NCBI GenBank assembly: GCA_943736015.1
Contig: OX031072.1
Location: 9,513,501 to 9,577,500, forward strand
From: Tridacna crocea
Taxonomy: Eukaryota > Mollusca > Bivalvia > Cardiida > Cardiidae
Direction of reading: 5' to 3'
DNA length: 64,000 bases
Shown here: positions 11,084 through 55,033 of the stretch, piece by piece
How positions within the stretch are numbered: the stretch's first letter is position 1
How the letters are laid out: every line of letters starts with the position of its first letter
Notes under the pieces: model-generated
What the model was told of the DNA's origin: nothing
Database searches by the model: none
Seen by the model: only the letters and a program-made list of their open reading frames with translations
Translations under genes and position numbers: made by a program

Positions 11084-11113
11084 ATAATTATTAACCTTTT
11101 ACCACACAATGAC

Positions 11114-11129: not shown

Positions 11130-11158
11130 TTTTAAAAATAATCTGAGGAAAGGAGACA

Positions 11159-11230
11159 ATGCAGGTTACCAGCATTTTCTCCTTTTCCCACAATGTTTTC
11201 TACCCTATCAAAGAAACAATTGATTCTTAG
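11159..11230 (+). other. Recurrent 23-codon micro-ORF (doubtful)
   Basis: An ATG at 11159 opens 23 codons (starting MQVTSIFSFSHNV) and ends at TAG. It lies about 30 bp after the TATA-like TTTAAAAATA. The frame is also open, with the stop at the same place, in the divergent P monomers (596-667 in M1), where it differs by several amino-acid changes. It is missing in M26 and M27. Length and pattern of change do not show selection on a peptide, so chance is the likelier explanation. Confidence 0.1.
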
Positions 11231-14620: not shown

Positions 14621-16535
14621 TTGCAAAACGGTCTTCTGCGCCCCTATTTTCTTAAATGTTTGCCCATTTTGAGTGAAATCTGGCATGTGTGGGTGGTGCA
14701 GGCATGGCAGTTTGCAAGGACTGCACAGCAGCCTTTAAAGAAGACTTTAATTCCACTTTTATGCCGTTTTTTTCACTGATTTTTTTTATGGATTAATTTT
14801 GGCGCCATTTTGGAGCGATTTTGAAGCTCTCTGATTGGCTGTTGAATTTCTTAAGTCTACTCTGATTGGCTGCTGGTATCCATTCTGATTTCCTTAAAGC
14901 TTCTCTGATTGGATAATTATTAACCTTTTACCACACAATGACGCCTTTTAAAGAAGGCTTTTAAAAATAATCTGAGGAAAGGAGACAATGCAGGTTACCA
15001 GCATTTTCTCCTTTTCCCACAATGTTTTCTACCCTATCAAAGAAACAATTGATTCTTAGTTATTCTTACATCTTATTGCATCTTTATGGCCTACTTCTAA
15101 ATTCTTCAAACAAGAACAAGATTTTTTTATCGGAAAAAGTTTCCGCAACAGCAACCAGTTGATTTTACGACTTTATACGCAGCACGTAACGGTCACGTAT
15201 GGGTGAGATGGTCATCGTAACCAAATCAATGGCCCTAGTTAGAGAAAAAGAAAAAAGAAAAATCCCTATAATTGACTTAAGCAGCAGTTGTCGTCTGCTA
15301 TAAAATATTCCGTAAGTCGATCTTTCATGTTTTTGCGGATACGTAAGTGGCACCTATGAGACAATAGACAACCTAAAAAGCTTTGTTGTCACGGCGAAAA
15401 AAGATTTCAGAAATAAAAAGCAGATATTAGAAATTAAGTTCCCTATATTTGACCTATTAAGCAACAGGTGTCGTCTGCTATGAAATGTTCCGTAAGTCGA
15501 TTTTTCGCATTTTCGTGGATACGTAACCGGCACCTACGAGACGGTAGACAACGTAAATGGATTTGTTGTCACGGTATAAAGAGATTGGAGAAAAAAATAT
15601 AAATTTAAAAATTTAGTTCCTTTTGTTTGATTTCTGCAATAAGAAGCAGCTGCTACTGAAAGAGCCTTCAGTCTTTTTTTAGCCACTTGTCGCATTATTT
15701 TCTGGGGTTTTCGCATGCACTTAACTGGCACGTATGAGACGGAAGTCAACATAACTGGGTTTCTTGTTGCGGTTTGAAGAGATTAGAAAAATTACACTTC
15801 AGTTGCCTTTGTTTGATATATGAGAGTTTTCAGTCTGTTTTTAGCCACTTGTCACATTAATTTCTGAGGTTTTCGCATGAGCGTAACTGGCACATAGTCA
15901 ACGTAACTGGGTTTCTTGTTGCGGTTTGAAGAGATTGGAAAAATTACACTTCAGTTGCCTTTGTTTGAGATATGCAATAGGAAGCAACTGAAAGAGTTTT
16001 CAGTCTTTTTTTAGCCACTTGTCACATTAATTTCTGGGCATTTTTTTTTACACTGTACATTGATCACTTTGGCTTATTGAAAGTTTCAATGTGCAGCATT
16101 TATTGTGGGCTGAGTTAGAAAAGCAAATCCAGTTAAGGGCTGGGGAGGGGGGTGTTGGGTGCATGGAGGGTTAAAGGGAAGTAATTCTTGCATTATTTTC
16201 TGGGCGTTTTTTTTTTTTATACACTGTACATTGATCACTTTGGCTTATTGAAAGTTCCAATGTGCAGCATTTATTGTGGGCCGAGTTAGAAAAGCAAATC
16301 CAGTTAAGGGCTGGGGAGGGGGGTGTTGGGTGCATCGAGGGTTAAAGGGAAGTAATTCTTGCATTATTTTCTGGGCGTTTTTTTTTTGTTTTTTTTTTAT
16401 ACACACTGTACATTGATCACTTTGGCTTATTGAAAGTTTCAATATGCAGCATTTATTTATGGGCTGAGTTAGAAAAGCAAATCCAGTTAAGGGCTGGGGA
16501 GGGGGGGTGCATCGAGGGTTAAAGGGAAGTAATTC
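14621..16535 (+). repeat. Monomer M9, Q type A, holds the start of the hexamer duplication
   Basis: Length is 1,915 bp. From about 15,568-15,712 onward the sequence repeats almost exactly 11,474 bp later; before that it does not. GCATGCACTTAACTGG (15713 region) is found elsewhere only in M15. SR repeats start at 16051, 16222 and 16404. The second ends in a T10-G-T10 tract. Confidence 0.95.
16051..16535 (+). repeat. Standard SR block (three copies, 171 + 182 + 132 bp)
   Basis: This is the representative block present once per monomer. Each SR contains CACTGTACATTGATCAC, GCTTATTGAAAGTTTC, GCAGCATTTATT, AGAAAAGCAAATCCAG, a G-rich stretch (GGGGAGGGGGGTG), AGGGTTAAAGGGAAG and TTCTTGCATTATTTTC, then poly(T) and TATACA. 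The last copy stops at TTCTTGCA and passes into the next monomer head. The G-rich stretch could form a G-quadruplex on the + strand. Confidence 0.93.
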
Positions 16536-18443
16536 TTGCAAAACGGTCTTCTGCGCCCCTATTTTCTTAAATGTTTGCCCATTTTGAGTGAAATCTGGCA
16601 TGTGTGGGTGGTGCAGGCATGGCAGTTTGCAAGGACTGCACAGCAGCCTTTAAAGAAGACTTTAATTCCACTTTTATGCCGTTTTTTTCACTGATTTTTT
16701 TTATGGATAAATTTTGGCGCCATTTTGGAGCGATTTTGAAGCTCTCTGATTGGCTGTTGAATTTCTTAAGTCTACTCTGATTGGCTGCTGGTATCCATTC
16801 TGATTTCCTTAAAGCTTCTCTGATTGGATAATTATTAACCTTTTACCACACAATGACGCCTTTTAAAGAAGGCTTTTAAAAATAATCTGAGGAAAGGAGA
16901 CAATGCAGGTTACCAGCATTTTCTCCTTTTCCCACAATGTTTTCTACCCTATCAAAGAAACAATTGATTCTTAGTTATTCTTACATCTTATTGCATCTTT
17001 ATGGCCTACTTCTAAATTCTTGAAACAAGAACAAGATTTTTTTATCGGAAAAAGTTTCCGCAACAGCAACCAGTTGATTTTATGACTTTATATGCAGCAC
17101 GTAACGGTCACGTATGGGTGAGATGGTCATCGTAACCAAATCAATGGCCCTAGTTAGAGATAAAGAAAAAATAAAAAACCCTATAATTGACTTAAGCAGC
17201 AGTTGTCGTCTGCTATAAAATTTTCCGTAAGTCAATCTTTCATGTTTTTGCGGATACGTAAGTGGCACCTGCGAGACAATAGACAACCTAAAAAGCTTTT
17301 TTGTCACGGCGAAAAAAGATTGCAGAAATAAAAAGCAGATATTAGAAATTAAGTTCCCTATATTTGACCTATTAAGCAACAGGTGTCGTCTGCTATAAAT
17401 TGTTCCGTAAGTCAATTTTTCGCATTTTCGCGGATACGTAACCGGCACCTACGAGACGGTAGTCAATGTAAATGGATTTGTCGTCACGGTATAAAGAGAT
17501 TGGAGAAAAAAATATAAATTTAAAAATTTAGTTCCTTTTGTTTGATTTCTGCAATAAGAAGCAGCTGCTACTGAAAGAGCCTTCAGTCTTTTTTTAGCCA
17601 CTTGTCGCATTATTTTCTGGGGTTTTCGCATGGGCGTAACTGGCACGTATGAGACGGAAGTCAACATAACTGGGTTTCTTGTTGCGGTTTGAAGAGATTA
17701 GAAAAATTACACTTCAGTTGCCTTTGTTTGATATATGAGAGTTTTCAGTCTTTTTTTTAGCCACTTGTCACATTAATTTCTGAGGTTTTCGCATGAGCGT
17801 AACTGGCACATAGTCAACGTAACTGGGTTTCTTGTTGCGGTTTGAAGAGATTGGAAAAATTACACTTCAGTTGCCTTTGTTTGAGATATGCAATAGGAAG
17901 CAACTGAAAGAGTTTTCAGTCTTTTTTTAGCCACTTCTCACATTAATTTCTGGGCATTTTTTATTACAGTGTACATTGATCACTTTGGCTTATTGAAAGT
18001 TTCAATGTGCAGCATTTATTGTGGGCTGAGTTAGAAAAGCAAATCCAGTTAAGGGCTGGGGAGGGGGGTGTTGGGTGCATGGAGGGTTAAAGGGAAGTAA
18101 TTCTTGCATTATTTTCTGGGCGTTTTTTTTTTTTATACACTGTACATTGATCACTTTGGCTTATTGAAAGTTCCAATGTGCAGCATTTATTGTGGGCCGA
18201 GTTAGAAAAGCAAATCCAGTTAAGGGCTGGGGAGGGGGGTGTTGGGTGCATCGAGGGTTAAAGGGAAGTAATTCTTGCATTATTTTCTGGGCGTTTTTTT
18301 TTTTTAATACACACTGTACATTGATCACTTTGGCTTATTGAAAGTTTCAATATGCAGCATTTATTTATGGGCTGAGTTAGAAAAGCAAATCCAGTTAAGG
18401 GCTGGGGAGGGGGGGTGCATCGAGGGTTAAAGGGAAGTAATTC
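16536..18443 (+). repeat. Monomer M10, Q type B, 1,908 bp
   Basis: B-type bases are AAAAAATAAAAAACCC, GTAAGTCAATCTTTC and GCATGGGCGTAACTGG. Private changes include TATAAAATTTTCCG and AAAAGCTTTTTTGTC. SR repeats start at 17967 (as CAGTGTAC), 18138 and 18312. Its duplicate is M16. Confidence 0.95.
17100..17966 (+). repeat. Degenerate module array a-e inside a monomer
   Basis: Five related modules can be aligned on their CGTAA core at 17100 (a), 17257 (b), 17437 (c), 17635 (d) and 17798 (e), a spacing of 157-198 bp. Shared blocks in order are CGTAAC-GGCAC--GAGAC, GTCAACGTAA-TGG, TTGTCGTCACGG or TTCTTGTTGCGG, GAAGAGATTGGA, TTTGTTTGAT, GCAATAAGAAGC, TTTTTTTAGCCACTTGTC and TTTCTGGGGTTTTCGCAT. The monomer body therefore grew by repeated duplication of one module that later diverged. 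The same layout holds in other Q monomers. Confidence 0.8.
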
Positions 18444-20356
18444 TTGCAAAACGGTCTTCTGCGCCCCTATTTTCTTAAATGTTTGCCCATTTTGAGTGAA
18501 ATCTGGCATGTGTGGGTGGTGCAGGCATGGCAGTTTGCAAGGACTGCACAGCAGCCTTTAAAGAAGACTTTAATTCCACTTTTATGCCGTTTTTTTCACT
18601 GATTTTTTTTATGGATAAATTTTGGCGCCATTTTGGAGCGATTTTGAAGCTCTCTGATTGGCTGTTGAATTTCTTAAGTCTACTCTGATTGGCTGCTGGT
18701 ATCCATTCTGATTTCCTTAAAGCTTCTCTGATTGGATAATTATTAACCTTTTACCACACAATGACGCCTTTTAAAGAAGGCTTTTAAAAATAATCTGAGG
18801 AAAGGAGACAATGCAGGTTACCAGCATTTTCTCCTTTTCCCACAATGTTTTCTACCCTATCAAAGAAACAATTGATTCTTAGTTATTCTTACATCTTATT
18901 GCATCTTTATGGCCTACTTCTAAATTCTTCAAACAAGAACAAGATTTTTTTATCGGAAAAAGTTTCCGCAACAGCAACCAGTTGATTTTACGACTTTATA
19001 CGCAGCACGTAACGGTCACGTATGGGTGAGATGGTCATCGTAACCAAATCAATGGCCCTAGTTAGAGAAAAAGAAAAAAGAAAAATCCCTATAATTGACT
19101 TAAGCAGCAGTTGTCGTCTGCTATAAAATATTCCGTAAGTCGATCTTTCATGTTTTTGCGGATACGTAAGTGGCACCTATGAGACAATAGACAACCTAAA
19201 AAGCTTTGTTGTCACGGCGAAAAAAGATTGCAGAAATAAAAAGCAGATATTAGAAATTAAGTTCCCTATATTTGACCTATTAAGCAACAGGTGTCGTCTG
19301 CTATGAAATGTTCCGTAAGTCGATTTTTCGCATTTTCGTGGATACGTAACCGGCACCTACGAGACGGTAGACAACGTAAATGGATTTGTTGTCACGGTAT
19401 AAAGAGATTGGAGAAAAAAATATAAATTTAAAAATTTAGTTCCTTTTGTTTGATTTCTGCAATAAGAAGCAGCTGCTACTGAAAGAGCCTTCAGTCTTTT
19501 TTTAGCCACTTGTCGCATTATTTTCTGGGGTTTTCGCATGCGCTTAACTGGCACGTATGAGACGGAAGTCAACATAAATGGGTTTCTTGTTGCGGTTTGA
19601 AGAGATTAGAAAAATTACACTTCAGTTGCCTTTGTTTGATATATGAGAGTTTTCAGTCTGTTTTTAGCCACTTGTCACATTAATTTCTGAGGTTTTCGCA
19701 TGAGCGTAACTGGCACATAGTCAACGTAACTGGGTTTCTTGTTGCAGTTTGAAGAGATTGGAAAAATTACACTTCAGTTGCCTTTGTTTGAGATATGCAA
19801 TAGGAAGCAACTGAAAGAGTTTTCAGTCTTTTTTTAGCCACTTGTCACATTAATTTCTGGGCATTTTTTTCTACACTGTACATTGATCACTTTGGCTTAT
19901 TGAAAGTTTCAATGTGCAGCATTTATTGTGGGCTGAGTTAGAAAAGCAAATCCAGTTAAGGGCTGGGGAGGGGGGTGTTGGGTGCATGGAGGGTTAAAGG
20001 GAAGTAATTCTTGCATTATTTTCTGGGCGTTTTTTTTTTTTATACACTGTACATTGATCACTTTGGCTTATTGAAAGTTCCAATGTGCAGCATTTATTGT
20101 GGGCCGAGTTAGAAAAGCAAATCCAGTTAAGGGCTGGGGAGGGGGGTGTTGGGTGCATCGAGGGTTAAAGGGAAGTAATTCTTGCATTACTTTCTGGGCT
20201 TTTTTTTTTTTTTTTTTTTTTACGCACTGGACATTGATCACTTTGGCTTATTGAAAGTTTCACTATGCAGCATTTATTTATGGGCTGAGTTAGAAAAGCA
20301 AATTCAGTTAAGGGCTCGGGAGGGGAGGTGCATCGAGGGTTAAAGGGAAGTAATTC
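18444..20356 (+). repeat. Monomer M11, Q type A, 1,913 bp
   Basis: A-type body with AACATAAATGGGTTTC after module d and GTTGCAGTTTG in module e. SR repeats start at 19874, 20045 and 20225. The last SR is a CACTGGACATTG variant preceded by a pure T22 tract. Its duplicate is M17. Confidence 0.95.
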
Positions 20357-22275
20357 TTGCAAAACGGTCTTCTGCGCCCCTATTTTCTTAAATGTTTGCC
20401 CATTTTGAGTGAAATCTGGCATGTGTGGGTGGTGCAGGCATGGCAGTTTGCAAGGACTGCACAGCAGCCTTTAAAGAAGACTTTAATTCCACTTTTATGC
20501 CGTTTTTTTCACTGATTTTTTTTATGGATAAATTTTGGCGCCATTTTGGAGCGATTTTGAAGCTCTCTGATTGGCTGTTGAATTTCTTAAGTCTACTCTG
20601 ATTGGCTGCTGGTATCCATTCTGATTTCCTTAAAGCTTCTCTGATTGGATAATTATTAACCTTTTACCACACAATGACGCCTTTTAAAGAAGGCTTTTAA
20701 AAATAATCTGAGGAAAGGAGACAATGCAGGTTACCAGCATTTTCTCCTTTTCCCACAATGTTTTCTACCCTATCAAAGAAACAATTGATTCTTAGTTATT
20801 CTTACATCTTATTGCATCTTTATGGCCTACTTCTAAATTCTTGAAACAAGAACAAGATTTTTTTATCGGAAAAAGTTTCCGCAACAGCAACCAGTTGATT
20901 TTACGACTTTATATGCAGCAGATAACGGTCACGTATGGGTGAGATGGTCATCGTAACCAAATCAATGGCCCTAGTTAGAGAAAAAGAAAAAATTAAAAAC
21001 CCTATAATTGACTTAAGCAGCAGTTGTCGTCTGCTATAAAATATTCCGTAAGTCAATCTTTCATGTTTTTGCGGATACGTAAGTGGCACCTGCGAGACAA
21101 TAGACAACCTAAAAAGCTTTGTTGTCACGGCGAAAAAAGATTGCAGAAATAAAAAGCAGATATTAGAAATTAAGTTCCCTATATTTGACCTATTTAGCAA
21201 CAGGTGTCGTCTGCTATGAAATGTTCCGTAAGTCAATTTTTCGCATTTTCGCGGATACGTAACCGGCACCTACGAGACGGTAGTCAACGTAAATGGATTT
21301 GTCGTCACGGTATAAAGAGATTGGAGAAAAAAATATAAATTTAAAAATTTAGTTCCTTTTGTTTGATTTCTGCAATAAGAAGCAGCTGCTACTGAAAGAG
21401 CCTTCAGTCTTTTTTTAGCCACTTGTCGCATTATTTTCTGGGGTTTTCGCATGGGCATAACTGGCACGTATGAGACGGAAGTCAACGTAACTGGGTTTCT
21501 TGTTGCGGTTTGAAGAGATTAGAAAAATTACACTTCAGTTGCCTTTGTTTGATATATGAGAGTTTTCAGTCTTTTTTTTAGCCACTTGTCACATTAATTT
21601 CTGAGGTTTTCGCATGAGCGTAACTGGCACATAGTCAATGTAACTGGGTTTCTTGTTGCGGTTTGAAGAGATTGGAAAAATTACACTTCAGTTGCCTTTG
21701 TTTGAGATATGCAATAGGAAGCAACTGAAAGAGTTTTCAGTCTTTTTTTAGCCACTTGTCACATTAATTTCTGGGCATTTTTTTTTACAGTGTACATTGA
21801 TCACTTTGGCTTATTGAAAGTTTCAATGTGCAGCATTTATTGTGGGCTGAGTTAGAAAAGCAAATCCAGTTAAGGGCTGGGGAGGGGGGTGTTGGGTGCA
21901 TGGAGGGTTAAAGGGAAGTAATTCTTGCATTATTTTCTGGGCGTTTTTTTTTTTTATACACTGTACATTGATCACTTTGGCTTATTGAAAGTTTCAATGT
22001 GCAGCATTTATTGTGGGCCGAGTTAGAAAAGCAAATCCAGTTAAAGGCTGGGGAGGGGGGTGTTGGGTGCATCGAGGGTTAAAGGGAAGTAATTCTTGCA
22101 TTATTTTCTGGTCGTTTTTTTTTTTTTTTTTTTTTTTTATACACACTGTACATTGATCACTTTGGCTTATTGAAAGTTTCAATATGCAGCATTTATTTAT
22201 GGGCTGAGTTAGAAAAGCAAATCCAGTTAAGGGCTGGGGAGGGGGGGTGCATCGAGGGTTAAAGGGAAGTAATTC
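20357..22275 (+). repeat. Monomer M12, Q type B, 1,919 bp
   Basis: B-type body with private GCAGCAGATAACGG, GACCTATTTAGCAAC and GCATGGGCATAACTGG. SR repeats start at 21788, 21959 and 22144; the last follows TTTTCTGGTCG and a T24 tract. Its duplicate is M18. Confidence 0.95.
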
Positions 22276-24182
22276 TTGCAAAACGGTCTTCTGCGCCCCT
22301 ATTTTCTTAAATGTTTGCCCATTTTGAGTGAAATCTGGCATGTGTGGGTGGTGCAGGCATGGCAGTTTGCAAGGACTGCACAGCAGCCTTTAAAGAAGAC
22401 TTTAATTCCACTTTTATGCCGTTTTTTTCACTGTTTTTTTATGGATAAATTTTGGCGCCATTTTGGAGCGATTTTGAAGCTCTCTGATTGGCTGTTGAAT
22501 TTCTTAAGTCTACTCTGATTGGCTGCTGGTATCCATTCTGATTTCCTTAAAGCTTCTCTGATTGGATAATTATTAACCTTTTACCACATAATGACACCTT
22601 TTAAAGAAGGCTTTTAAAAATAATCTGAGGAAAGGAGACAATGCAGGTTACCAGCATTTTCTCCTTTTCCCACAATGTTTTCTACCCTATCAAAGAAACA
22701 ATTGATTCTTAGTTATTCTTACATCTTATTGCATCTTTATGGCCTACTTCTAAATTCTTCAAACAAGAACAAGATTTTTTTATCGGAAAAAGTTTCCGCA
22801 ACAGCAACCAGTTGATTTTACGACTTTATACGCAGCACGTAACGGTCACGTATGGGTGAGATGGTCATCGTAACCAAATCAATGGCCCTAGTTAGAGAAA
22901 AAGAAAAAAGAAAAATCCCTATAATTGACTTAAGCAGCAGTTGTCGTCTGCTATAAAATATTCCGTAAGTCGATCTTTCATGTTTTTGCGGATACGTAAG
23001 TGGCACCTATGAGACAATAGACAACCTAAAAAGCTTTGTTGTCACGGCGAAAAAAGATTGCAGAAATAAAAAGCAGATATTAGAAATTAAGTTCCCTATA
23101 TTTGACCTATTAAGCAACAGGTGTCGTCTGCTATGAAATGTTCCGTAAGTCGATTTTTCGCATTTTCGTGGATACGTAACCGGCACCTACGAGACGGTAG
23201 ACAACGTAAATGGATTTGTTGTCACGGTATAAAGAGATTGGAGAAAAAAATATAAATTTAAAAATTTAGTTCCTTTTGTTTGATTTCTGCAATAAGAAGC
23301 AGCTGCTACTGAAAGAGCCTTCAGTCTTTTTTTAGCCACTTGTCGCATTATTTTCTGGGGTTTTCGCATGCGCTTAACTGGCACGTATGAGACGGAAGTC
23401 AACATAACTGGGTTTCTTGTTGCGGTTTGAAGAGATTAGAAAAATTACACTTCAGTTGCCTTTGTTTGATATATGAGAGTTTTCAGTCTGTTTTTAGCCA
23501 CTTGTCACATTAATTTCTGAGGTTTTCGCATGAGCGTAACTGGCACATAGTCAACGTAACTGGGTTTCTTGTTGCGGTTTGAAGAGATTGGAAAAATTAC
23601 ACTTCAGTTGCCTTTGTTTGAGATATGCAATAGGAAGCAACTGAAAGAGTTTTCAGTCTTTTTTTAGCCACTTGTCACATTAATTTCTGGGCATTTTTTT
23701 CTACACTGTACATTGATCACTTTGGCTTATTGAAAGTTTCAATGTGCAGCATTTATTGTGGGTCGAGTTAGAAAAGCAAATCCAGTTAGGGGCTGGGGAG
23801 GGGGGTGTTGGGTGCATGGAGGGTTAAAGGGAAGTAATTCTTGCATTATTTTCTGGGCATTTTTTTTTTTATACACTGTACATTGATCACTTTGGCTTAT
23901 TGAAAGTTCCAATGTGCAGCATTTATTGTGGGCCGAGTTAGAAAAGCAAATCCAGTTAAGGGCTGGGGAGGGGGGTGTTGGGTGCATCGAGGGTTAAAGG
24001 GAAGTAATTCTTGCATTACTTTCTGGGCTTTTTTTTTTTTTTTTTTGACGCACTGGACATTGATCACTTTGGCTTATTGAAAGTTTCACTATGCAGCATT
24101 TATTTATGGGCTGAGTTAGAAAAGCAAATCCAGTTAAGGGCTGGGGAGGGGAGGTGCATCGAGGGTTAAAGGGAAGTAATTC
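22276..24182 (+). repeat. Monomer M13, Q type A, 1,907 bp
   Basis: A-type body with CCACATAATGACACC in place of the usual CCACACAATGACGCC. SR repeats start at 23704, 23874 and 24051, the last as CACTGGACATTG. GTGGGTCGAGTTAG and CAGTTAGGGGCTGG in the first SR are private to this monomer and its duplicate M19. Confidence 0.95.
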
Positions 24183-26096
24183 TTGCAAAACGGTCTTCTG
24201 CGCCCCTATTTTCTTAAATGTTTGCCCATTTTGAGTGAAATCTGGCATGTGTGGGTGGTGCAGGCATGGCAGTTTGCAAGGACTGCACAGCAGCCTTTAA
24301 AGAAGACTTTAATTCCACTTTTATGCCGTTTTTTTTCACTGTTTTTTTTTATGGATAAATTTTGGCGCCATTTTGGAGCGATTTTGAAGCTCTCTGATTG
24401 GCTGTTGAATTTCTTAAGTCTACTCTGATTGGCTGCTGGTATCCATTCTGATTTCCTTAAAGCTTCTCTGATTGGATAATTATTAACCTTTTACCACACA
24501 ATGACGCCTTTTAAAGAAGGCTTTTAAAAATAATCTGAGGAAAGGAGACAATGCAGGTTACCAGCATTTTCTCCTTTTCCCACAATGTTTTCTACCCTAT
24601 CAAAGAAACAATTGATTCTTAGTTATTCTTACATCTTATTGCATCTTTATGGCCTACTTCTAAATTCTTCAAACAAGAACAAGATTTTTTTATCGGAAAA
24701 AGTTTCCGCAACAGCAACCAGTCGATTTTACGACTTTATATGCAGCACATAACGGTCACGTATGGGTGAGATGGTCATCGTAACCAAATCAATGGCCCTA
24801 GTTAGAGAAAAAGAAAAAATAAAAAACCCTATAATTGACTTAAGCAGCAGTTGTCGTCTGCTATAAAATATTCCGTAAGTCAATCTTTCATGTTTTTGCG
24901 GATACGTAAGTGGCACCTGCGAGACAATAGACAACCTAAAAAGCTTTGTTGTCACGGCGAAAAAAGATTGCAGAAATAAAAAGCAGATATTAGAAATTAA
25001 GTTCCCTATATTTGACCTATTAAGCAACAGGTGTCATCTGCTATGAAATGTTCCGTAAGTCAATTTTTCGCATTTTCGCGGATACGTAACCGGCACCTAC
25101 GAGACGGTAGTCAACGTAAATGGATTTGTCGTCACGGTATAAAGAGATTGGAGAAAAAAATATAAATTTAAAAATTTAGTTCCTTTTGTTTGATTTCTGC
25201 AATAAGAAGCAGCTGCAACTGAAAGAGCCTTCAGTCTTTTTTTAGCCACTTGTCGCATTATTTTCTGGGGTTTTCGCATGGGCGTAACTGGCACGTATGA
25301 GACGGTAGTCAACGTAACTGGGTTTCTTGTTGCGGTTTGAAGAGATTAGAAAAATTACACTTCAGTTGCCTTTGTTTGATATATGAGAGTTTTCAGTCTT
25401 TTTTTTAGCCACTTGTCACATTAATTTCTGAGGTTTTCGCATGAGCGTAACTGGCACATAGTCAACGTAACTGGGTTTCTTGTTGCGGTTTGAAGAGATT
25501 GGAAAAATTACACTTCAGTTGCCTTTGTTTGAGATATGCAATAGGAAGCAACTGAAAGAGTTTTCAGTCTTTTTTTAGCCACTTGTCACATTAATTTCTG
25601 GGCATTTTTTTCTACACTGTACATTGATCACTTTGGCTTATTGAAAGTTTCAATGTGCAGCATTTATTGTGGGCTGAGTTAGAAAAGCAAATCCAGTTAA
25701 GGGCTGGGGAGGGGGGTGTTGGGTGCATGGAGGGTTAAAGGGAAGTAATTCTTGCATTATTTTCTGGGCGTTTTTTTTTTTTTTAATACACTGTACATTG
25801 ATCACTTTGGCTTATTGAAAGTTCCAATGTGCAGCATTTATTGTGGGCCGAGTTAGAAAAGCAAATCCAGTTAAGGGCTGGGGAGGGGGGTGTTGGGTGC
25901 ATCGAGGGTTAAAGGGAAGTAATTCTTGCATTATTTTCTGGGCGTTTTTTTTTTTTTATTATACACACTGTACATTGATCACTTTGGCTTATTAAAAGTT
26001 TCAATATGCAGCATTTATTTATGGGCTGAGTTAGAAAAGCAAATCCAGTTAAGGACTGGGGAGGGGGGTGCATCGAGGGTTAAAGGGAAGTAATTC
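24183..26096 (+). repeat. Monomer M14, Q type B, 1,914 bp
   Basis: B-type body with CAACCAGTCGATTTTACG and AGCAGCTGCAACTG. SR repeats start at 25615, 25789 and 25966. The last has the C-lineage marks TTATTATACACACTG and GGCTTATTAAAAG. Both known differences from its duplicate M20 are here: 25886 lies in its second SR, and 24143 lies in the SR just before its start. Confidence 0.94.
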
Positions 26097-28009
26097 TTGC
26101 AAAACGGTCTTCTGCGCCCCTATTTTCTTAAATGTTTGCCCATTTTGAGTGAAATCTGGCATGTGTGGGTGGTGCAGGCATGGCAGTTTGCAAGGACTGC
26201 ACAGCAGCCTTTAAAGAAGACTTTAATTCCACTTTTATGCCGTTTTTTTCACTGTATTTTTATGGATAAATTTTGGCACCATTTTGGAGCGATTTTGAAG
26301 CTCTCTGATTGGCTGTTGAATTTCTTAAGTCTACTCTGATTGGCTGCTGGTATCCATTCTGATTTCCTTAAAGCTTCTCTGATTGGATAATTATTAACCT
26401 TTTACCACACAATGACGCCTTTTAAAGAAGGCTTTTAAAAATAATCTGAGGAAAGGAGACAATGCAGGTTACCAGCATTTTCTCCTTTTCCCACAATGCT
26501 TTCTACCCTATCAAAGAAACAATTGATTCTTAGTTATTCTTACATCTTATTGCATCTTTATGGCCTACTTCTAAATTCTTCAAACAAGAACAAGATTTTT
26601 TTATCGGAAAAAGTTTCCGCAACAGCAACCAGTTGATTTTACGACTTTATACGCAGCACGTAACGGTCACGTATGGGTGAGATGGTCATCGTAACCAAAT
26701 CAATGGCCCTAGTTAGAAAAAAAGAAAAAAGAAAAATCCCTATAATTGACTTAAGCAGCAGTTGTCGTCTGCTATAAAATATTCCGTAAGTCGATCTTTC
26801 ATATTTTTGCGAATACGTAAGTGGCACCTGAGAGACAATAGACAACCTAAAAAGCTTTGTTGTCACGGCGAAAAAAGATTGCAGAAATAAAAAGCAGATA
26901 TTAGAAATTAAGTTCCCTATATTTGACCTATTAAGCAACAGGTGTCGTCTGCTATGAAATGTTCCGTAAGTCGATTTTTCGCATTTTCGCGGATACGTAA
27001 CCGGCACCTATGAGACGGTAGTCAACGTAAATGGATTTGTCGTCACGGTATAAAGAGATTGGAGAAAAAAATATAAATTTAAAAATTTAGTTCCTTTTGT
27101 TTGATTTCTGCAATAAGAAGCAGCTGCTACTGAAAGAGCCTTCAGTCTTTTTTTAGCCACTTGTCGCATTATTTTCTGGGGTTTTCGCATGCACTTAACT
27201 GGCACGTATGAGACGGAAGTCAACATAACTGGGTTTCTTGTTGCGGTTTGAAGAGATTAGAAAAATTACACTTCAGTTGCCTTTGTTTGATATATGAGAG
27301 TTTTCAGTCTGTTTTTAGCCACTTGTCACATTAATTTCTGAGGTTTTCGCATGAGCGTAACTGGCACATAGTCAACGTAACTGGGTTTCTTGTTGCGGTT
27401 TGAAGAGATTGGAAAAATTACACTTCAGTTGCCTTTGTTTGAGATATGCAATAGGAAGCAACTGAAAGAGTTTTCAGTCTTTTTTTAGCCACTTGTCACA
27501 TTAATTTCTGGGCATTTTTTTTTACACTGTACATTGATCACTTTGGCTTATTGAAAGTTTCAATGTGCAGCATTTATTGTGGGCTGAGTTAGAAAAGCAA
27601 ATCCAGTTAAGGGCTGGGGAGGGGGGTGTTGGGTGCATGGAGGGTTAAAGGGAAGTAATTCTTGCATTATTTTCTGGGCGTTTTTTTTTTTTATACACTG
27701 TACATTGATCACTTTGGCTTATTGAAAGTTCCAATGTGCAGCATTTATTGTGGGCCGAGTTAGAAAAGCAAATCCAGTTAAGGGCTGGGGAGGGGGGTGT
27801 TGGGTGCATCGAGGGTTAAAGGGAAGTAATTCTTGCATTATTTTCTGGGCGTTTTTTTTTTGTTTTTTTTTTATACACACTGTACATTGATCACTTTGGC
27901 TTATTGAAAGTTTCAATATGCAGCATTTATTTATGGGCTGAGTTAGAAAAGCAAATCCAGTTAAGGGCTGGGGAGGGGGGGTGCATCGAGGGTTAAAGGG
28001 AAGTAATTC
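26097..28009 (+). repeat. Monomer M15, chimera: C-type head, M9-type tail
   Basis: The head has the C-type CACTGTATTTTTATGG and GGCACC in place of GGCGCC. The body has C-type GCGAATACG up to at least 27,041. From 27,186 at the latest the sequence is that of M9 (GCATGCACTTAACTGG). It is therefore the junction monomer of the hexamer duplication. SR repeats start at 27525, 27696 and 27878. Confidence 0.94.
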
Positions 28010-29917
28010 TTGCAAAACGGTCTTCTGCGCCCCTATTTTCTTAAATGTTTGCCCATTTTGAGTGAAATCTGGCATGTGTGGGTGGTGCAGGCATGGCAGT
28101 TTGCAAGGACTGCACAGCAGCCTTTAAAGAAGACTTTAATTCCACTTTTATGCCGTTTTTTTCACTGATTTTTTTTATGGATAAATTTTGGCGCCATTTT
28201 GGAGCGATTTTGAAGCTCTCTGATTGGCTGTTGAATTTCTTAAGTCTACTCTGATTGGCTGCTGGTATCCATTCTGATTTCCTTAAAGCTTCTCTGATTG
28301 GATAATTATTAACCTTTTACCACACAATGACGCCTTTTAAAGAAGGCTTTTAAAAATAATCTGAGGAAAGGAGACAATGCAGGTTACCAGCATTTTCTCC
28401 TTTTCCCACAATGTTTTCTACCCTATCAAAGAAACAATTGATTCTTAGTTATTCTTACATCTTATTGCATCTTTATGGCCTACTTCTAAATTCTTGAAAC
28501 AAGAACAAGATTTTTTTATCGGAAAAAGTTTCCGCAACAGCAACCAGTTGATTTTATGACTTTATATGCAGCACGTAACGGTCACGTATGGGTGAGATGG
28601 TCATCGTAACCAAATCAATGGCCCTAGTTAGAGATAAAGAAAAAATAAAAAACCCTATAATTGACTTAAGCAGCAGTTGTCGTCTGCTATAAAATTTTCC
28701 GTAAGTCAATCTTTCATGTTTTTGCGGATACGTAAGTGGCACCTGCGAGACAATAGACAACCTAAAAAGCTTTTTTGTCACGGCGAAAAAAGATTGCAGA
28801 AATAAAAAGCAGATATTAGAAATTAAGTTCCCTATATTTGACCTATTAAGCAACAGGTGTCGTCTGCTATAAATTGTTCCGTAAGTCAATTTTTCGCATT
28901 TTCGCGGATACGTAACCGGCACCTACGAGACGGTAGTCAATGTAAATGGATTTGTCGTCACGGTATAAAGAGATTGGAGAAAAAAATATAAATTTAAAAA
29001 TTTAGTTCCTTTTGTTTGATTTCTGCAATAAGAAGCAGCTGCTACTGAAAGAGCCTTCAGTCTTTTTTTAGCCACTTGTCGCATTATTTTCTGGGGTTTT
29101 CGCATGGGCGTAACTGGCACGTATGAGACGGAAGTCAACATAACTGGGTTTCTTGTTGCGGTTTGAAGAGATTAGAAAAATTACACTTCAGTTGCCTTTG
29201 TTTGATATATGAGAGTTTTCAGTCTTTTTTTTAGCCACTTGTCACATTAATTTCTGAGGTTTTCGCATGAGCGTAACTGGCACATAGTCAACGTAACTGG
29301 GTTTCTTGTTGCGGTTTGAAGAGATTGGAAAAATTACACTTCAGTTGCCTTTGTTTGAGATATGCAATAGGAAGCAACTGAAAGAGTTTTCAGTCTTTTT
29401 TTAGCCACTTCTCACATTAATTTCTGGGCATTTTTTATTACAGTGTACATTGATCACTTTGGCTTATTGAAAGTTTCAATGTGCAGCATTTATTGTGGGC
29501 TGAGTTAGAAAAGCAAATCCAGTTAAGGGCTGGGGAGGGGGGTGTTGGGTGCATGGAGGGTTAAAGGGAAGTAATTCTTGCATTATTTTCTGGGCGTTTT
29601 TTTTTTTTATACACTGTACATTGATCACTTTGGCTTATTGAAAGTTCCAATGTGCAGCATTTATTGTGGGCCGAGTTAGAAAAGCAAATCCAGTTAAGGG
29701 CTGGGGAGGGGGGTGTTGGGTGCATCGAGGGTTAAAGGGAAGTAATTCTTGCATTATTTTCTGGGCGTTTTTTTTTTTTAATACACACTGTACATTGATC
29801 ACTTTGGCTTATTGAAAGTTTCAATATGCAGCATTTATTTATGGGCTGAGTTAGAAAAGCAAATCCAGTTAAGGGCTGGGGAGGGGGGGTGCATCGAGGG
29901 TTAAAGGGAAGTAATTC
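28010..29917 (+). repeat. Monomer M16, Q type B, duplicate of M10
   Basis: Matches M10 at +11,474 bp, including TATAAAATTTTCCG, the CAGTGTAC first SR (29441) and equal poly(T) lengths. SR repeats start at 29441, 29612 and 29786. I saw no differences from M10. Confidence 0.95.
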
Positions 29918-31830
29918 TTGCAAAACGGTCTTCTGCGCCCCTATTTTCTTAAATGTTTGCCCATTTTGAGTGAAATCTGGCATGTGTGGGTGGTGCAGGC
30001 ATGGCAGTTTGCAAGGACTGCACAGCAGCCTTTAAAGAAGACTTTAATTCCACTTTTATGCCGTTTTTTTCACTGATTTTTTTTATGGATAAATTTTGGC
30101 GCCATTTTGGAGCGATTTTGAAGCTCTCTGATTGGCTGTTGAATTTCTTAAGTCTACTCTGATTGGCTGCTGGTATCCATTCTGATTTCCTTAAAGCTTC
30201 TCTGATTGGATAATTATTAACCTTTTACCACACAATGACGCCTTTTAAAGAAGGCTTTTAAAAATAATCTGAGGAAAGGAGACAATGCAGGTTACCAGCA
30301 TTTTCTCCTTTTCCCACAATGTTTTCTACCCTATCAAAGAAACAATTGATTCTTAGTTATTCTTACATCTTATTGCATCTTTATGGCCTACTTCTAAATT
30401 CTTCAAACAAGAACAAGATTTTTTTATCGGAAAAAGTTTCCGCAACAGCAACCAGTTGATTTTACGACTTTATACGCAGCACGTAACGGTCACGTATGGG
30501 TGAGATGGTCATCGTAACCAAATCAATGGCCCTAGTTAGAGAAAAAGAAAAAAGAAAAATCCCTATAATTGACTTAAGCAGCAGTTGTCGTCTGCTATAA
30601 AATATTCCGTAAGTCGATCTTTCATGTTTTTGCGGATACGTAAGTGGCACCTATGAGACAATAGACAACCTAAAAAGCTTTGTTGTCACGGCGAAAAAAG
30701 ATTGCAGAAATAAAAAGCAGATATTAGAAATTAAGTTCCCTATATTTGACCTATTAAGCAACAGGTGTCGTCTGCTATGAAATGTTCCGTAAGTCGATTT
30801 TTCGCATTTTCGTGGATACGTAACCGGCACCTACGAGACGGTAGACAACGTAAATGGATTTGTTGTCACGGTATAAAGAGATTGGAGAAAAAAATATAAA
30901 TTTAAAAATTTAGTTCCTTTTGTTTGATTTCTGCAATAAGAAGCAGCTGCTACTGAAAGAGCCTTCAGTCTTTTTTTAGCCACTTGTCGCATTATTTTCT
31001 GGGGTTTTCGCATGCGCTTAACTGGCACGTATGAGACGGAAGTCAACATAAATGGGTTTCTTGTTGCGGTTTGAAGAGATTAGAAAAATTACACTTCAGT
31101 TGCCTTTGTTTGATATATGAGAGTTTTCAGTCTGTTTTTAGCCACTTGTCACATTAATTTCTGAGGTTTTCGCATGAGCGTAACTGGCACATAGTCAACG
31201 TAACTGGGTTTCTTGTTGCAGTTTGAAGAGATTGGAAAAATTACACTTCAGTTGCCTTTGTTTGAGATATGCAATAGGAAGCAACTGAAAGAGTTTTCAG
31301 TCTTTTTTTAGCCACTTGTCACATTAATTTCTGGGCATTTTTTTCTACACTGTACATTGATCACTTTGGCTTATTGAAAGTTTCAATGTGCAGCATTTAT
31401 TGTGGGCTGAGTTAGAAAAGCAAATCCAGTTAAGGGCTGGGGAGGGGGGTGTTGGGTGCATGGAGGGTTAAAGGGAAGTAATTCTTGCATTATTTTCTGG
31501 GCGTTTTTTTTTTTTATACACTGTACATTGATCACTTTGGCTTATTGAAAGTTCCAATGTGCAGCATTTATTGTGGGCCGAGTTAGAAAAGCAAATCCAG
31601 TTAAGGGCTGGGGAGGGGGGTGTTGGGTGCATCGAGGGTTAAAGGGAAGTAATTCTTGCATTACTTTCTGGGCTTTTTTTTTTTTTTTTTTTTTTACGCA
31701 CTGGACATTGATCACTTTGGCTTATTGAAAGTTTCACTATGCAGCATTTATTTATGGGCTGAGTTAGAAAAGCAAATTCAGTTAAGGGCTCGGGAGGGGA
31801 GGTGCATCGAGGGTTAAAGGGAAGTAATTC
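29918..31830 (+). repeat. Monomer M17, Q type A, duplicate of M11
   Basis: Matches M11, including the T22 tract, CACTGGACATTG (31699) and the private AACATAAATGGG. SR repeats start at 31348, 31519 and 31699. Confidence 0.95.
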
Positions 31831-33749
31831 TTGCAAAACGGTCTTCTGCGCCCCTATTTTCTTAAATGTTTGCCCATTTTGAGTGAAATCTGGCATGTGT
31901 GGGTGGTGCAGGCATGGCAGTTTGCAAGGACTGCACAGCAGCCTTTAAAGAAGACTTTAATTCCACTTTTATGCCGTTTTTTTCACTGATTTTTTTTATG
32001 GATAAATTTTGGCGCCATTTTGGAGCGATTTTGAAGCTCTCTGATTGGCTGTTGAATTTCTTAAGTCTACTCTGATTGGCTGCTGGTATCCATTCTGATT
32101 TCCTTAAAGCTTCTCTGATTGGATAATTATTAACCTTTTACCACACAATGACGCCTTTTAAAGAAGGCTTTTAAAAATAATCTGAGGAAAGGAGACAATG
32201 CAGGTTACCAGCATTTTCTCCTTTTCCCACAATGTTTTCTACCCTATCAAAGAAACAATTGATTCTTAGTTATTCTTACATCTTATTGCATCTTTATGGC
32301 CTACTTCTAAATTCTTGAAACAAGAACAAGATTTTTTTATCGGAAAAAGTTTCCGCAACAGCAACCAGTTGATTTTACGACTTTATATGCAGCAGATAAC
32401 GGTCACGTATGGGTGAGATGGTCATCGTAACCAAATCAATGGCCCTAGTTAGAGAAAAAGAAAAAATTAAAAACCCTATAATTGACTTAAGCAGCAGTTG
32501 TCGTCTGCTATAAAATATTCCGTAAGTCAATCTTTCATGTTTTTGCGGATACGTAAGTGGCACCTGCGAGACAATAGACAACCTAAAAAGCTTTGTTGTC
32601 ACGGCGAAAAAAGATTGCAGAAATAAAAAGCAGATATTAGAAATTAAGTTCCCTATATTTGACCTATTTAGCAACAGGTGTCGTCTGCTATGAAATGTTC
32701 CGTAAGTCAATTTTTCGCATTTTCGCGGATACGTAACCGGCACCTACGAGACGGTAGTCAACGTAAATGGATTTGTCGTCACGGTATAAAGAGATTGGAG
32801 AAAAAAATATAAATTTAAAAATTTAGTTCCTTTTGTTTGATTTCTGCAATAAGAAGCAGCTGCTACTGAAAGAGCCTTCAGTCTTTTTTTAGCCACTTGT
32901 CGCATTATTTTCTGGGGTTTTCGCATGGGCATAACTGGCACGTATGAGACGGAAGTCAACGTAACTGGGTTTCTTGTTGCGGTTTGAAGAGATTAGAAAA
33001 ATTACACTTCAGTTGCCTTTGTTTGATATATGAGAGTTTTCAGTCTTTTTTTTAGCCACTTGTCACATTAATTTCTGAGGTTTTCGCATGAGCGTAACTG
33101 GCACATAGTCAATGTAACTGGGTTTCTTGTTGCGGTTTGAAGAGATTGGAAAAATTACACTTCAGTTGCCTTTGTTTGAGATATGCAATAGGAAGCAACT
33201 GAAAGAGTTTTCAGTCTTTTTTTAGCCACTTGTCACATTAATTTCTGGGCATTTTTTTTTACAGTGTACATTGATCACTTTGGCTTATTGAAAGTTTCAA
33301 TGTGCAGCATTTATTGTGGGCTGAGTTAGAAAAGCAAATCCAGTTAAGGGCTGGGGAGGGGGGTGTTGGGTGCATGGAGGGTTAAAGGGAAGTAATTCTT
33401 GCATTATTTTCTGGGCGTTTTTTTTTTTTATACACTGTACATTGATCACTTTGGCTTATTGAAAGTTTCAATGTGCAGCATTTATTGTGGGCCGAGTTAG
33501 AAAAGCAAATCCAGTTAAAGGCTGGGGAGGGGGGTGTTGGGTGCATCGAGGGTTAAAGGGAAGTAATTCTTGCATTATTTTCTGGTCGTTTTTTTTTTTT
33601 TTTTTTTTTTTTATACACACTGTACATTGATCACTTTGGCTTATTGAAAGTTTCAATATGCAGCATTTATTTATGGGCTGAGTTAGAAAAGCAAATCCAG
33701 TTAAGGGCTGGGGAGGGGGGGTGCATCGAGGGTTAAAGGGAAGTAATTC
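31831..33749 (+). repeat. Monomer M18, Q type B, duplicate of M12
   Basis: Matches M12, including GCAGCAGATAACGG, TTTTCTGGTCG and the T24 tract before 33618. SR repeats start at 33262, 33433 and 33618. Confidence 0.95.
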
Positions 33750-35656
33750 TTGCAAAACGGTCTTCTGCGCCCCTATTTTCTTAAATGTTTGCCCATTTTG
33801 AGTGAAATCTGGCATGTGTGGGTGGTGCAGGCATGGCAGTTTGCAAGGACTGCACAGCAGCCTTTAAAGAAGACTTTAATTCCACTTTTATGCCGTTTTT
33901 TTCACTGTTTTTTTATGGATAAATTTTGGCGCCATTTTGGAGCGATTTTGAAGCTCTCTGATTGGCTGTTGAATTTCTTAAGTCTACTCTGATTGGCTGC
34001 TGGTATCCATTCTGATTTCCTTAAAGCTTCTCTGATTGGATAATTATTAACCTTTTACCACATAATGACACCTTTTAAAGAAGGCTTTTAAAAATAATCT
34101 GAGGAAAGGAGACAATGCAGGTTACCAGCATTTTCTCCTTTTCCCACAATGTTTTCTACCCTATCAAAGAAACAATTGATTCTTAGTTATTCTTACATCT
34201 TATTGCATCTTTATGGCCTACTTCTAAATTCTTCAAACAAGAACAAGATTTTTTTATCGGAAAAAGTTTCCGCAACAGCAACCAGTTGATTTTACGACTT
34301 TATACGCAGCACGTAACGGTCACGTATGGGTGAGATGGTCATCGTAACCAAATCAATGGCCCTAGTTAGAGAAAAAGAAAAAAGAAAAATCCCTATAATT
34401 GACTTAAGCAGCAGTTGTCGTCTGCTATAAAATATTCCGTAAGTCGATCTTTCATGTTTTTGCGGATACGTAAGTGGCACCTATGAGACAATAGACAACC
34501 TAAAAAGCTTTGTTGTCACGGCGAAAAAAGATTGCAGAAATAAAAAGCAGATATTAGAAATTAAGTTCCCTATATTTGACCTATTAAGCAACAGGTGTCG
34601 TCTGCTATGAAATGTTCCGTAAGTCGATTTTTCGCATTTTCGTGGATACGTAACCGGCACCTACGAGACGGTAGACAACGTAAATGGATTTGTTGTCACG
34701 GTATAAAGAGATTGGAGAAAAAAATATAAATTTAAAAATTTAGTTCCTTTTGTTTGATTTCTGCAATAAGAAGCAGCTGCTACTGAAAGAGCCTTCAGTC
34801 TTTTTTTAGCCACTTGTCGCATTATTTTCTGGGGTTTTCGCATGCGCTTAACTGGCACGTATGAGACGGAAGTCAACATAACTGGGTTTCTTGTTGCGGT
34901 TTGAAGAGATTAGAAAAATTACACTTCAGTTGCCTTTGTTTGATATATGAGAGTTTTCAGTCTGTTTTTAGCCACTTGTCACATTAATTTCTGAGGTTTT
35001 CGCATGAGCGTAACTGGCACATAGTCAACGTAACTGGGTTTCTTGTTGCGGTTTGAAGAGATTGGAAAAATTACACTTCAGTTGCCTTTGTTTGAGATAT
35101 GCAATAGGAAGCAACTGAAAGAGTTTTCAGTCTTTTTTTAGCCACTTGTCACATTAATTTCTGGGCATTTTTTTCTACACTGTACATTGATCACTTTGGC
35201 TTATTGAAAGTTTCAATGTGCAGCATTTATTGTGGGTCGAGTTAGAAAAGCAAATCCAGTTAGGGGCTGGGGAGGGGGGTGTTGGGTGCATGGAGGGTTA
35301 AAGGGAAGTAATTCTTGCATTATTTTCTGGGCATTTTTTTTTTTATACACTGTACATTGATCACTTTGGCTTATTGAAAGTTCCAATGTGCAGCATTTAT
35401 TGTGGGCCGAGTTAGAAAAGCAAATCCAGTTAAGGGCTGGGGAGGGGGGTGTTGGGTGCATCGAGGGTTAAAGGGAAGTAATTCTTGCATTACTTTCTGG
35501 GCTTTTTTTTTTTTTTTTTTGACGCACTGGACATTGATCACTTTGGCTTATTGAAAGTTTCACTATGCAGCATTTATTTATGGGCTGAGTTAGAAAAGCA
35601 AATCCAGTTAAGGGCTCGGGAGGGGAGGTGCATCGAGGGTTAAAGGGAAGTAATTC
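33750..35656 (+). repeat. Monomer M19, Q type A, duplicate of M13
   Basis: Matches M13, including CCACATAATGACACC and GTGGGTCGAGTTAG, except C35617 against G24143 in its last SR. SR repeats start at 35178, 35348 and 35525. Confidence 0.95.
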
Positions 35657-37570
35657 TTGCAAAACGGTCTTCTGCGCCCCTATTTTCTTAAATGTTTGCC
35701 CATTTTGAGTGAAATCTGGCATGTGTGGGTGGTGCAGGCATGGCAGTTTGCAAGGACTGCACAGCAGCCTTTAAAGAAGACTTTAATTCCACTTTTATGC
35801 CGTTTTTTTTCACTGTTTTTTTTTATGGATAAATTTTGGCGCCATTTTGGAGCGATTTTGAAGCTCTCTGATTGGCTGTTGAATTTCTTAAGTCTACTCT
35901 GATTGGCTGCTGGTATCCATTCTGATTTCCTTAAAGCTTCTCTGATTGGATAATTATTAACCTTTTACCACACAATGACGCCTTTTAAAGAAGGCTTTTA
36001 AAAATAATCTGAGGAAAGGAGACAATGCAGGTTACCAGCATTTTCTCCTTTTCCCACAATGTTTTCTACCCTATCAAAGAAACAATTGATTCTTAGTTAT
36101 TCTTACATCTTATTGCATCTTTATGGCCTACTTCTAAATTCTTCAAACAAGAACAAGATTTTTTTATCGGAAAAAGTTTCCGCAACAGCAACCAGTCGAT
36201 TTTACGACTTTATATGCAGCACATAACGGTCACGTATGGGTGAGATGGTCATCGTAACCAAATCAATGGCCCTAGTTAGAGAAAAAGAAAAAATAAAAAA
36301 CCCTATAATTGACTTAAGCAGCAGTTGTCGTCTGCTATAAAATATTCCGTAAGTCAATCTTTCATGTTTTTGCGGATACGTAAGTGGCACCTGCGAGACA
36401 ATAGACAACCTAAAAAGCTTTGTTGTCACGGCGAAAAAAGATTGCAGAAATAAAAAGCAGATATTAGAAATTAAGTTCCCTATATTTGACCTATTAAGCA
36501 ACAGGTGTCATCTGCTATGAAATGTTCCGTAAGTCAATTTTTCGCATTTTCGCGGATACGTAACCGGCACCTACGAGACGGTAGTCAACGTAAATGGATT
36601 TGTCGTCACGGTATAAAGAGATTGGAGAAAAAAATATAAATTTAAAAATTTAGTTCCTTTTGTTTGATTTCTGCAATAAGAAGCAGCTGCAACTGAAAGA
36701 GCCTTCAGTCTTTTTTTAGCCACTTGTCGCATTATTTTCTGGGGTTTTCGCATGGGCGTAACTGGCACGTATGAGACGGTAGTCAACGTAACTGGGTTTC
36801 TTGTTGCGGTTTGAAGAGATTAGAAAAATTACACTTCAGTTGCCTTTGTTTGATATATGAGAGTTTTCAGTCTTTTTTTTAGCCACTTGTCACATTAATT
36901 TCTGAGGTTTTCGCATGAGCGTAACTGGCACATAGTCAACGTAACTGGGTTTCTTGTTGCGGTTTGAAGAGATTGGAAAAATTACACTTCAGTTGCCTTT
37001 GTTTGAGATATGCAATAGGAAGCAACTGAAAGAGTTTTCAGTCTTTTTTTAGCCACTTGTCACATTAATTTCTGGGCATTTTTTTCTACACTGTACATTG
37101 ATCACTTTGGCTTATTGAAAGTTTCAATGTGCAGCATTTATTGTGGGCTGAGTTAGAAAAGCAAATCCAGTTAAGGGCTGGGGAGGGGGGTGTTGGGTGC
37201 ATGGAGGGTTAAAGGGAAGTAATTCTTGCATTATTTTCTGGGCGTTTTTTTTTTTTTTAATACACTGTACATTGATCACTTTGGCTTATTGAAAGTTCCA
37301 ATGTGCAGCATTTATTGTGGGCCGAGTTAGAAAAGCAAATCCAGTTAAGGGCTGGGGAGCGGGGTGTTGGGTGCATCGAGGGTTAAAGGGAAGTAATTCT
37401 TGCATTATTTTCTGGGCGTTTTTTTTTTTTTATTATACACACTGTACATTGATCACTTTGGCTTATTAAAAGTTTCAATATGCAGCATTTATTTATGGGC
37501 TGAGTTAGAAAAGCAAATCCAGTTAAGGACTGGGGAGGGGGGTGCATCGAGGGTTAAAGGGAAGTAATTC
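35657..37570 (+). repeat. Monomer M20, Q type B, duplicate of M14
   Basis: Matches M14, including CAACCAGTCGATTTTACG and equal T-run lengths, except C37360 (GGGGAGCGGGG) against G25886. SR repeats start at 37089, 37263 and 37440. Confidence 0.95.
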
Positions 37571-39473
37571 TTGCAAAACGGTCTTCTGCGCCCCTATTTT
37601 CTTAAATGTTTGCCCATTTTGAGTGAAATCTGGCATGTGTGGGTGGTGCAGGCATGGCAGTTTGCAAGGACTGCACAGCAGCCTTTAAAGAAGACTTTAA
37701 TTCCACTTTTATGCCGTTTTTTTCACTGTATTTTTATGGATAAATTTTGGCACCATTTTGGAGCGATTTTGAAGCTCTCTGATTGGCTGTTGAATTTCTT
37801 AAGTCTACTCTGATTGGCTGCTGGTATCCATTCTGATTTCCTTAAAGCTTCTCTGATTGGATAATTATTAACCTTTTACCACACAATGACGCCTTTTAAA
37901 GAAGGCTTTTAAAAATAATCTGAGGAAAGGAGACAATGCAGGTTACCAGCATTTTCTCCTTTTCCCACAATGCTTTCTACCCTATCAAAGAAACAATTGA
38001 TTCTTAGTTATTCTTACATCTTATTGCATCTTTATGGCCTACTTCTAAATTCTTCAAACAAGAACAAGATTTTTTTATCGGAAAAAGTTTCCGCAACAGC
38101 AACCAGTTGATTTTACGACTTTATACGCAGCACGTAACGGTCACGTATGGGTGAGATGGTCATCGTAACCAAATCAATGGCCCTAGTTAGAAAAAAAGAA
38201 AAAAGAAAAATCCCTATAATTGACTTAAGCAGCAGTTGTCGTCTGCTATAAAATATTCCGTAAGTCGATCTTTCATATTTTTGCGAATACGTAAGTGGCA
38301 CCTGAGAGACAATAGACAACCTAAAAAGCTTTGTTGTCACGGCGAAAAAAGATTGCAGAAATAAAAAGCAGATATTAGAAATTAAGTTCCCTATATTTGA
38401 CCTATTAAGCAACAGGTGTCGTCTGCTATGAAATGTTCCGTAAGTCGATTTTTCGCATTTTCGCGGATACGTAACCGGCACCTATGAGACGGTAGTCAAC
38501 GTAAATGGATTTGTCGTCACGGTATAAAGAGATTGGAGAAAAAAATATAAATTTAAAAATTTAGTTCCTTTTGTTTGATTTCTGCAATAAGAAGCAGCTG
38601 CTACTGAAAGAGCCTTCAGTCTTTTTTTAGCCACTTGTCGCATTATTTTCTGGGGTTTTGGCATGCGCATAACTGGCATGTATGAGACGGAAATCAACGT
38701 AACTGGGTTTCTTGTTGCGGTTTCAAGAGATTAGAAAAATTACACTTCCGTTGCCTTTGTTTGATATATGAGAGTTTTCAGTCTTTTTTTAGCCACTTGT
38801 CACATTAATTTCTGAGGTTTTCGCATGAGCGTAACTGGCACATAGTCAACGTAACTGGGTTTCTTGTTGCGGTTTGAAGAGATTGGAAAAATTACACTTC
38901 AGTTGCCTTTGTTTGAGATATGCAATAGGAAGCAACTGAAAGAGTTTTCAGTCTTTTTTTAGCCACTTGTCACATTAATTTCTGGGCATTTTTTTTTACA
39001 CTGTACATTGATCACTTTGGCTTATTGAAAGTTTCAATGTGCAGCATTAATTGTGGGCTGAGTTAGAAAAGCAAATCCAGTTAAGGGCTGGGGAGGGGGG
39101 TGTTGGGTGCATGGAGGGTTAAAGGGAAGTAATTCTTGCATTATTTTCTGGGCGTTTTTTTTTTATACACTGTACATTGATCACTTTGGCTTATTGAAAG
39201 TTCCAATGTGCAGCATTTATTGTGGGCCGAGTTAGAAAAGCAAATCCAGTTAAGGGCTGGGGAGGGGGGTGTTGGGTGCATCGAGGGTTAAAGGGAAGTA
39301 ATTCTTGCATTATTTTCTGGGCGTTTTTTTTTTTTTATACACACTGTACATTGATCACTTTGGCTTATTGAAAGTTTCAATATGCAGCATTTATTTATGG
39401 GCTGAGTTAGAAAAGCAAATCCAGTTAAGGGCTGGGGAGGGGGGGTGCATCGAGGGTTAAAGGGAAGTAATTC
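37571..39473 (+). repeat. Monomer M21, Q type C, 1,903 bp
   Basis: The most complete C-type monomer: GGCACC head, GCGAATACG, CACCTGAGAGAC and TTTTGGCATGCGCATAACTGG. It pairs with M6, which has the same body but lacks the CCAAT module, and with the head of M15. SR repeats start at 38999, 39168 and 39342. Confidence 0.95.

Positions 39474-54999: not shown

Positions 55000-55033
<34 letters not shown>

Follow-up and report, generated by a model that had tools for sequence, protein, structure and literature searches.

An 11,474-bp tandem block duplication, probably real and recent, within a satellite DNA array of Tridacna crocea

Organization of the satellite array

The window analysed here is a stretch of 64,000 nucleotides of Tridacna crocea (GCA_943736015.1, contig OX031072.1, hereafter C17, positions 9,513,501–9,577,500), examined together with 100 kb of flank on each side in an assembly of 1.049 Gb and 31 contigs. 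No N occurs among the 264,000 bases of the window and both flanks. The window lies inside an array that starts at about C17:9,485,312 and is still running at 9,677,500, the last base examined, giving 192 kb of array. Our analysis revealed 107 monomer anchors, all in one orientation, arranged head to tail over at least 192 kb. Arrays with monomer lengths of their own were present in the samples taken elsewhere, from contigs C1, C2 (two places), C3, C4 and C6, with periods of 2090, 1612, 1695, 1676, 1828 and 1744–1926 bp. The array is eukaryotic satellite DNA. Within the window it is organized as follows:

1..2190, + strand: end of the outer part of the array, with monomers of about 1,672 bp (1.67 kb) that carry one copy each of a 171–180-bp sub-repeat
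2191..64000, + strand: inner core, mostly 1.9-kb monomers, usually with three sub-repeats (range 2 to 6) in each anchor interval (monomer table and TRF)
23694..24187, + strand: one instance of the internal sub-repeats, for which TRF gives a period of about 170 and 2.9 copies, with T-runs and a G-rich stretch of the type that holds both differing bases of the duplication described below

The inner core spans approximately C17:9.516–9.601 Mb and so extends beyond the window. Monomers in the middle of the core (m022–m039) are 98–100% like their best partner, with lower values for monomers nearer the edges. Repeated unequal exchange is expected to leave the middle of an array more alike than its edges.

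No Rfam family reached its gathering score in the window, and the nine Rfam matches up to E 5 obtained in one monomer were all far below that score. A search in the bacterial setting found no tRNA, and the longest stop-to-stop open reading frame over one monomer was 100 aa. Each monomer contains in a row GATTGG repeats (inverted CCAAT), TGACG and a T/A-rich stretch, for example at window positions 24364–24600; in its motifs this row resembles a putative promoter. Elsewhere in the assembly, the 29,009-bp contig C31 is mitochondrial and carries a COX1 in which TGA is read as Trp. At 29 kb, it is larger than usual for animal mitochondrial DNA. Arg codons at COX1 positions where Ser is usual may point to an invertebrate code. 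The mollusc haemocyanin domain PF14830 returned no match, in a search run without a positive control.

Approximately 140–170 bp of the monomer, of the type at window positions 22600–22740 and with a near-palindromic centre, also exist as a dispersed element. In the 71.5 kb of left flank (C17:9,413,501–9,485,000) this element accounts for 53 merged sites, of which 42 gave matches on both strands; the remainder of the monomer was not found in this flank (169 of 1,672 positions matched). A 40-base piece of the element gave 96,375 matches genome-wide at up to 2 mismatches (47,569 + 48,806), satellite copies included. An estimate derived from this count, in which the satellite would make up about 16% of the genome, was rejected because the pattern lies in the element that is also dispersed. 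Other parts of the monomer gave 10,152 matches (41 bases, up to 2 mismatches) and 14,236 matches (50 bases, up to 3 mismatches, with up to several per monomer); the satellite may comprise about ten thousand monomers and make up close to 2% of the genome. Bivalve satellites linked to non-autonomous mobile elements (for example PMC7492417, PMC8268682) are similar in that the monomer holds sequence also dispersed as short copies. In contrast to these bivalve and oyster satellites, the C17 monomer of 1.67–1.9 kb contains a short element of about 140 bp with inverted repeats, and the likeness is one of organization.

Extent and identity of the duplicated block

A preliminary description of this DNA had proposed a nearly perfect tandem duplication of 11,474 bp that differs at two bases only, and base-by-base alignment of the two blocks bears this out. 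When the window is compared with itself at a shift of +11,474 bp, positions 15568–27185 match positions 27042–38659 over 11,618 bp, ungapped and with exactly two mismatches (divergence of 1.7e-4, i.e., 2/11,618, no indel). The components of the duplication are:

15568..27041, + strand: copy A of the 11,474-bp block, consisting of a monomer tail, five whole monomers and the head of the next monomer (constant-offset comparison and monomer table)
24143, + strand: first differing base, G, with C at its copy B counterpart, 35617
25886, + strand: second differing base, G, with C at its copy B counterpart, 37360
27042..38515, + strand: copy B of the block; two exact periods end at 38515 and identity goes on to 38659

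The extent originally given, 15568–38515, thus describes a real block, although the identity is slightly longer and continues in the second copy for 144 bp past 38515. With the anchor used here, the monomer spacings within the block are 1908, 1913, 1917, 1910, 1911 and 1915 bp; their sum of 11,474 agrees with the earlier list of six monomer lengths, from which single values deviate by a few bases, as another anchor would give. Both sites lie in the G-rich portion of the internal sub-repeat, with G in copy A and C in copy B. Genome-wide searches with the exact 64-base context of the C at 35617 and the exact 61-base context of the C at 37360 returned one match each, in copy B. Positions 25886 and 35617 are 9,731 bp apart; the interval between window positions 26 and 29 kb, over which long reads were to be mapped according to the preliminary description, does not take in both sites.

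The two in-register copies are far more alike than other monomers of the core. When the five whole monomer pairs were compared between copy A and copy B, they differed by 0, 0, 0, 1 and 1 substitutions without any gap, against an average of 24.9 and a minimum of 5 substitutions for 148 other core pairs (m022–m039, only pairs with under 50 gapped bases). From these other pairs, about 151 substitutions would be predicted over 11,618 bp, against 2 seen. The two copies agree in the length of each of the 51 T-runs of 7 or more, so the agreement of poly(T) lengths reported earlier is real; its use as evidence of recency, however, carries little weight because indel events number only 0.14 per substitution among the 148 core pairs and 0.28 among 32 close pairs, so that none is expected beside two substitutions. 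The probability of zero indels with two substitutions is about 0.75 at the ratio of 0.14 and 0.57 at 0.28.

Recurrence of six monomers in the same order could also be read as a higher-order repeat, in which the six would form one unit and the two blocks would be two of many copies. Higher-order periods do occur on C6, where spacings of the 1920–1926 type appear three times and are followed by 1744. Nevertheless, the monomers before m024 and after m036 break the six-unit order, leaving two copies only, and a 1.3-kb piece of the block had full-length 100% matches only at two places, both on C17, among 40 candidates scored. The block was not found repeated many times, and we regard this reading as highly improbable. 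Within window positions 16900–28400 (m025–m029), monomers two apart are in several cases closer to each other than neighbours are (e.g., m026 and m028, with at most 15 differing events), hinting at a possible older two-unit pattern inside the block.

The junction between the two copies

Two intervals were defined at the point where copy A passes into copy B:

27042..27185, + strand: junction interval, a 144-bp tract without differences between the partners; the exchange must lie inside it, its exact point not being placeable
27009..27206, + strand: 198-bp junction sequence, a diagnostic probe with one exact match in the whole 1.05-Gb assembly

In the junction monomer (m030), the sequence to the left of 27042–27185 follows the monomer at 37.9 kb and the sequence to the right follows the monomer at 15.0 kb. 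Outside the duplicated tract the similarity falls off abruptly: the 2 kb that precede 15568 contain 37 differing events and the 2 kb that follow 27185 contain 34, one alignment end gap being included in each total. The nearest differences lie at 15567, 15548, 15537 and 15516 on the left and at 27186, 27193, 27195 and 27205 on the right. Substitution counts are additive, with 11 between m030 and m024, 10 between m030 and m036, and 21 (11 + 10) between m024 and m036. Together with the 144-bp identical tract, this additivity is what an unequal exchange requires, and it supports a reading of m030 as a hybrid of m036 on the left and m024 on the right. It is support and not proof, since the sum would be no different if m030 were ancestral.

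A shorter, 160-bp form of the junction (27035–27194) was ruled out as a unique probe, as it occurs at three places, two of them on C6. The nearest allele on each side is therefore common, and the hybrid status of m030 rests on sites further out.

Related monomers and other block duplications

The C6 monomers at 0.90 Mb that carry the 160-bp form have 24 or more differences and lie at least as far from the block as from other core monomers, which rules them out as a recent source of the block. No recent block copy between C6 0.90 Mb and the C17 core was detected, the C6 monomers examined being about equally far, at 24 differences or more, from several core monomers. When eight monomers were compared, the identity of one core monomer was 98.2% to a C6 monomer and 92.1% to an outer C17 monomer. 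In a FastTree analysis of 79 sequences, read without support values and disregarding five rows that are flank fragments at the dispersed element, two C6 monomers from 0.90 Mb fell among the C17 core, 15 from C6 9.8 Mb were placed beside them, and the outer C17 monomers grouped with those of C2 and C3. Based on these similarities, the C17 core looks like a C6-type subfamily inside the C17 array.

Seventeen constant-offset segments of at least 2,000 bp were detected in the 192 kb of array, a number that does not equal the number of events, since some of the segments overlap and reflect a single event, and indels divide other events into more than one segment. The 11,474-bp segment is the longest and the least diverged, at 0.00017, with 0.00066 as the next lowest value. 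Other offsets on C17 are 6,689 bp (8 mismatches in 8,942 bp), 8,358 bp (7 in 5,165), 13,379 bp (5 in 4,660), 6,689 bp again (5 in 3,292), 6,686 bp (2 in 3,008), 5,014 bp (6 in 2,749) and a single-monomer offset of 1,915 bp (5 in 2,548). The other block duplications, which have offsets at multiples of the monomer and span 4, 5, 3 and 8 monomers, are more diverged than the 11,474-bp one. In addition, a 30-kb sample of C6 (9.80–9.83 Mb) contains exact repeats, one of 6,235 bp at an offset of 18,875 and one of 3,867 bp at an offset of 7,515. Given these other blocks on C17 and the long exact repeats on C6, duplication of several monomers at once is usual here. The 11,474-bp duplication is not a singular oddity; it is an ordinary event for satellite DNA.

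Origin of the duplication

The preliminary description had offered a recent unequal crossover or an assembly duplication, which was the right pair of options, and our analysis favours the former. We consider it probable that the locus contains a real and recent tandem duplication inside the satellite array, because the 264 kb contain no Ns, the copies differ at very few bases, and the junction switches cleanly from one monomer to another. In the proposed sequence of events, two monomers about 98.9% alike, separated by six units and located on sister chromatids or on homologues, would have aligned out of register. An exchange within the 144-bp tract identical in the partners, by crossover or by a replication-based process with an equivalent outcome, would then have given two copies of the 11,474-bp block with a single hybrid monomer between them, and the two G-to-C changes would have arisen afterwards in copy B. 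We infer the presence of both copies in one DNA molecule, the crossover mechanism and the order of these events.

The alternative is that the assembler placed the same 11.5 kb twice, from one or both haplotypes, with the G/C differences being allelic or consensus errors. The block length is near that of long reads, and near-identical tandem copies whose two differing bases are both private to one copy have the look of a heterotype or homotype false duplication. At each of the two sites the change is G>C within a G-run, a type that accounts for 7 of 143 and for 12 of 204 private substitutions. Its presence at both sites is a little unexpected and would be as compatible with residual consensus error as with mutation, although two events are too few to call. 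On the other hand, a heterotype copy should carry the heterozygosity of the species, whereas the observed difference is just 0.017%. As heterozygosity, such a value would be very low for an outbred invertebrate. The clean join from monomer to monomer within a 144-bp identical tract, producing a 198-bp sequence that is single in the assembly, also argues against an assembler artefact. Furthermore, recent assembly slips could not account for all of the more diverged duplications of like kind in this array. False duplications in assemblies are documented, and PMC9516828 names gaps between the members of a duplicated pair on one scaffold as one of their main marks, which the gap-free 264,000 bases do not show. 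Judged by the description in PMC9516828, the C17 copies resemble false duplications in being near-identical and in tandem on one scaffold, and differ from them in having no gap between the copies and far fewer differences than usual heterozygosity gives. We regard a false duplication as unlikely.

Copying of the block by a long gene-conversion or break-induced-replication tract, or by re-integration of an excised circle, would leave the same product and junction as a reciprocal crossover, and the sequence is compatible with each of these routes. They would need a tract of at least 11 kb, whereas a simple crossover covers all features with one exchange; we consider them quite unlikely.

A real tandem duplication by unequal exchange would agree with what is known of unequal crossing-over and block amplification in satellites such as human alpha satellite, with in-register blocks of several monomers, a hybrid junction monomer and a middle that is more alike. 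The C17 array differs from alpha satellite in its monomer (1.67–1.9 kb here, about 171 bp there) and in having two block copies only, and centromeric status is not implied for it. Taking a mutation rate of 3e-9 per base per generation, an order of magnitude that is not species-specific, the duplication would be some tens of thousands of generations old, with a Poisson range of about thirty-fold. The age could be far less if the two C's are consensus errors.

Significance

The mechanism is well known either way, and the importance of the finding is modest. If the duplication were an assembly error, it would show how such arrays get inflated. If it is real, the locus preserves a clean and almost unaltered junction from a satellite block duplication, from which the exchange tract and the block size can be read directly, and this junction sits beside older duplications of like kind within the array. 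As a wider scenario, which we put forward only tentatively, the C17 array may be a locus in active turnover, where the 1.9-kb subfamily may have entered the 1.67-kb array and may be spreading from its middle by block duplications of 3–8 monomers, the 11,474-bp block being the latest. If this scenario is true, a dated series of unequal exchanges and a transfer between chromosomes would have been caught in one locus.
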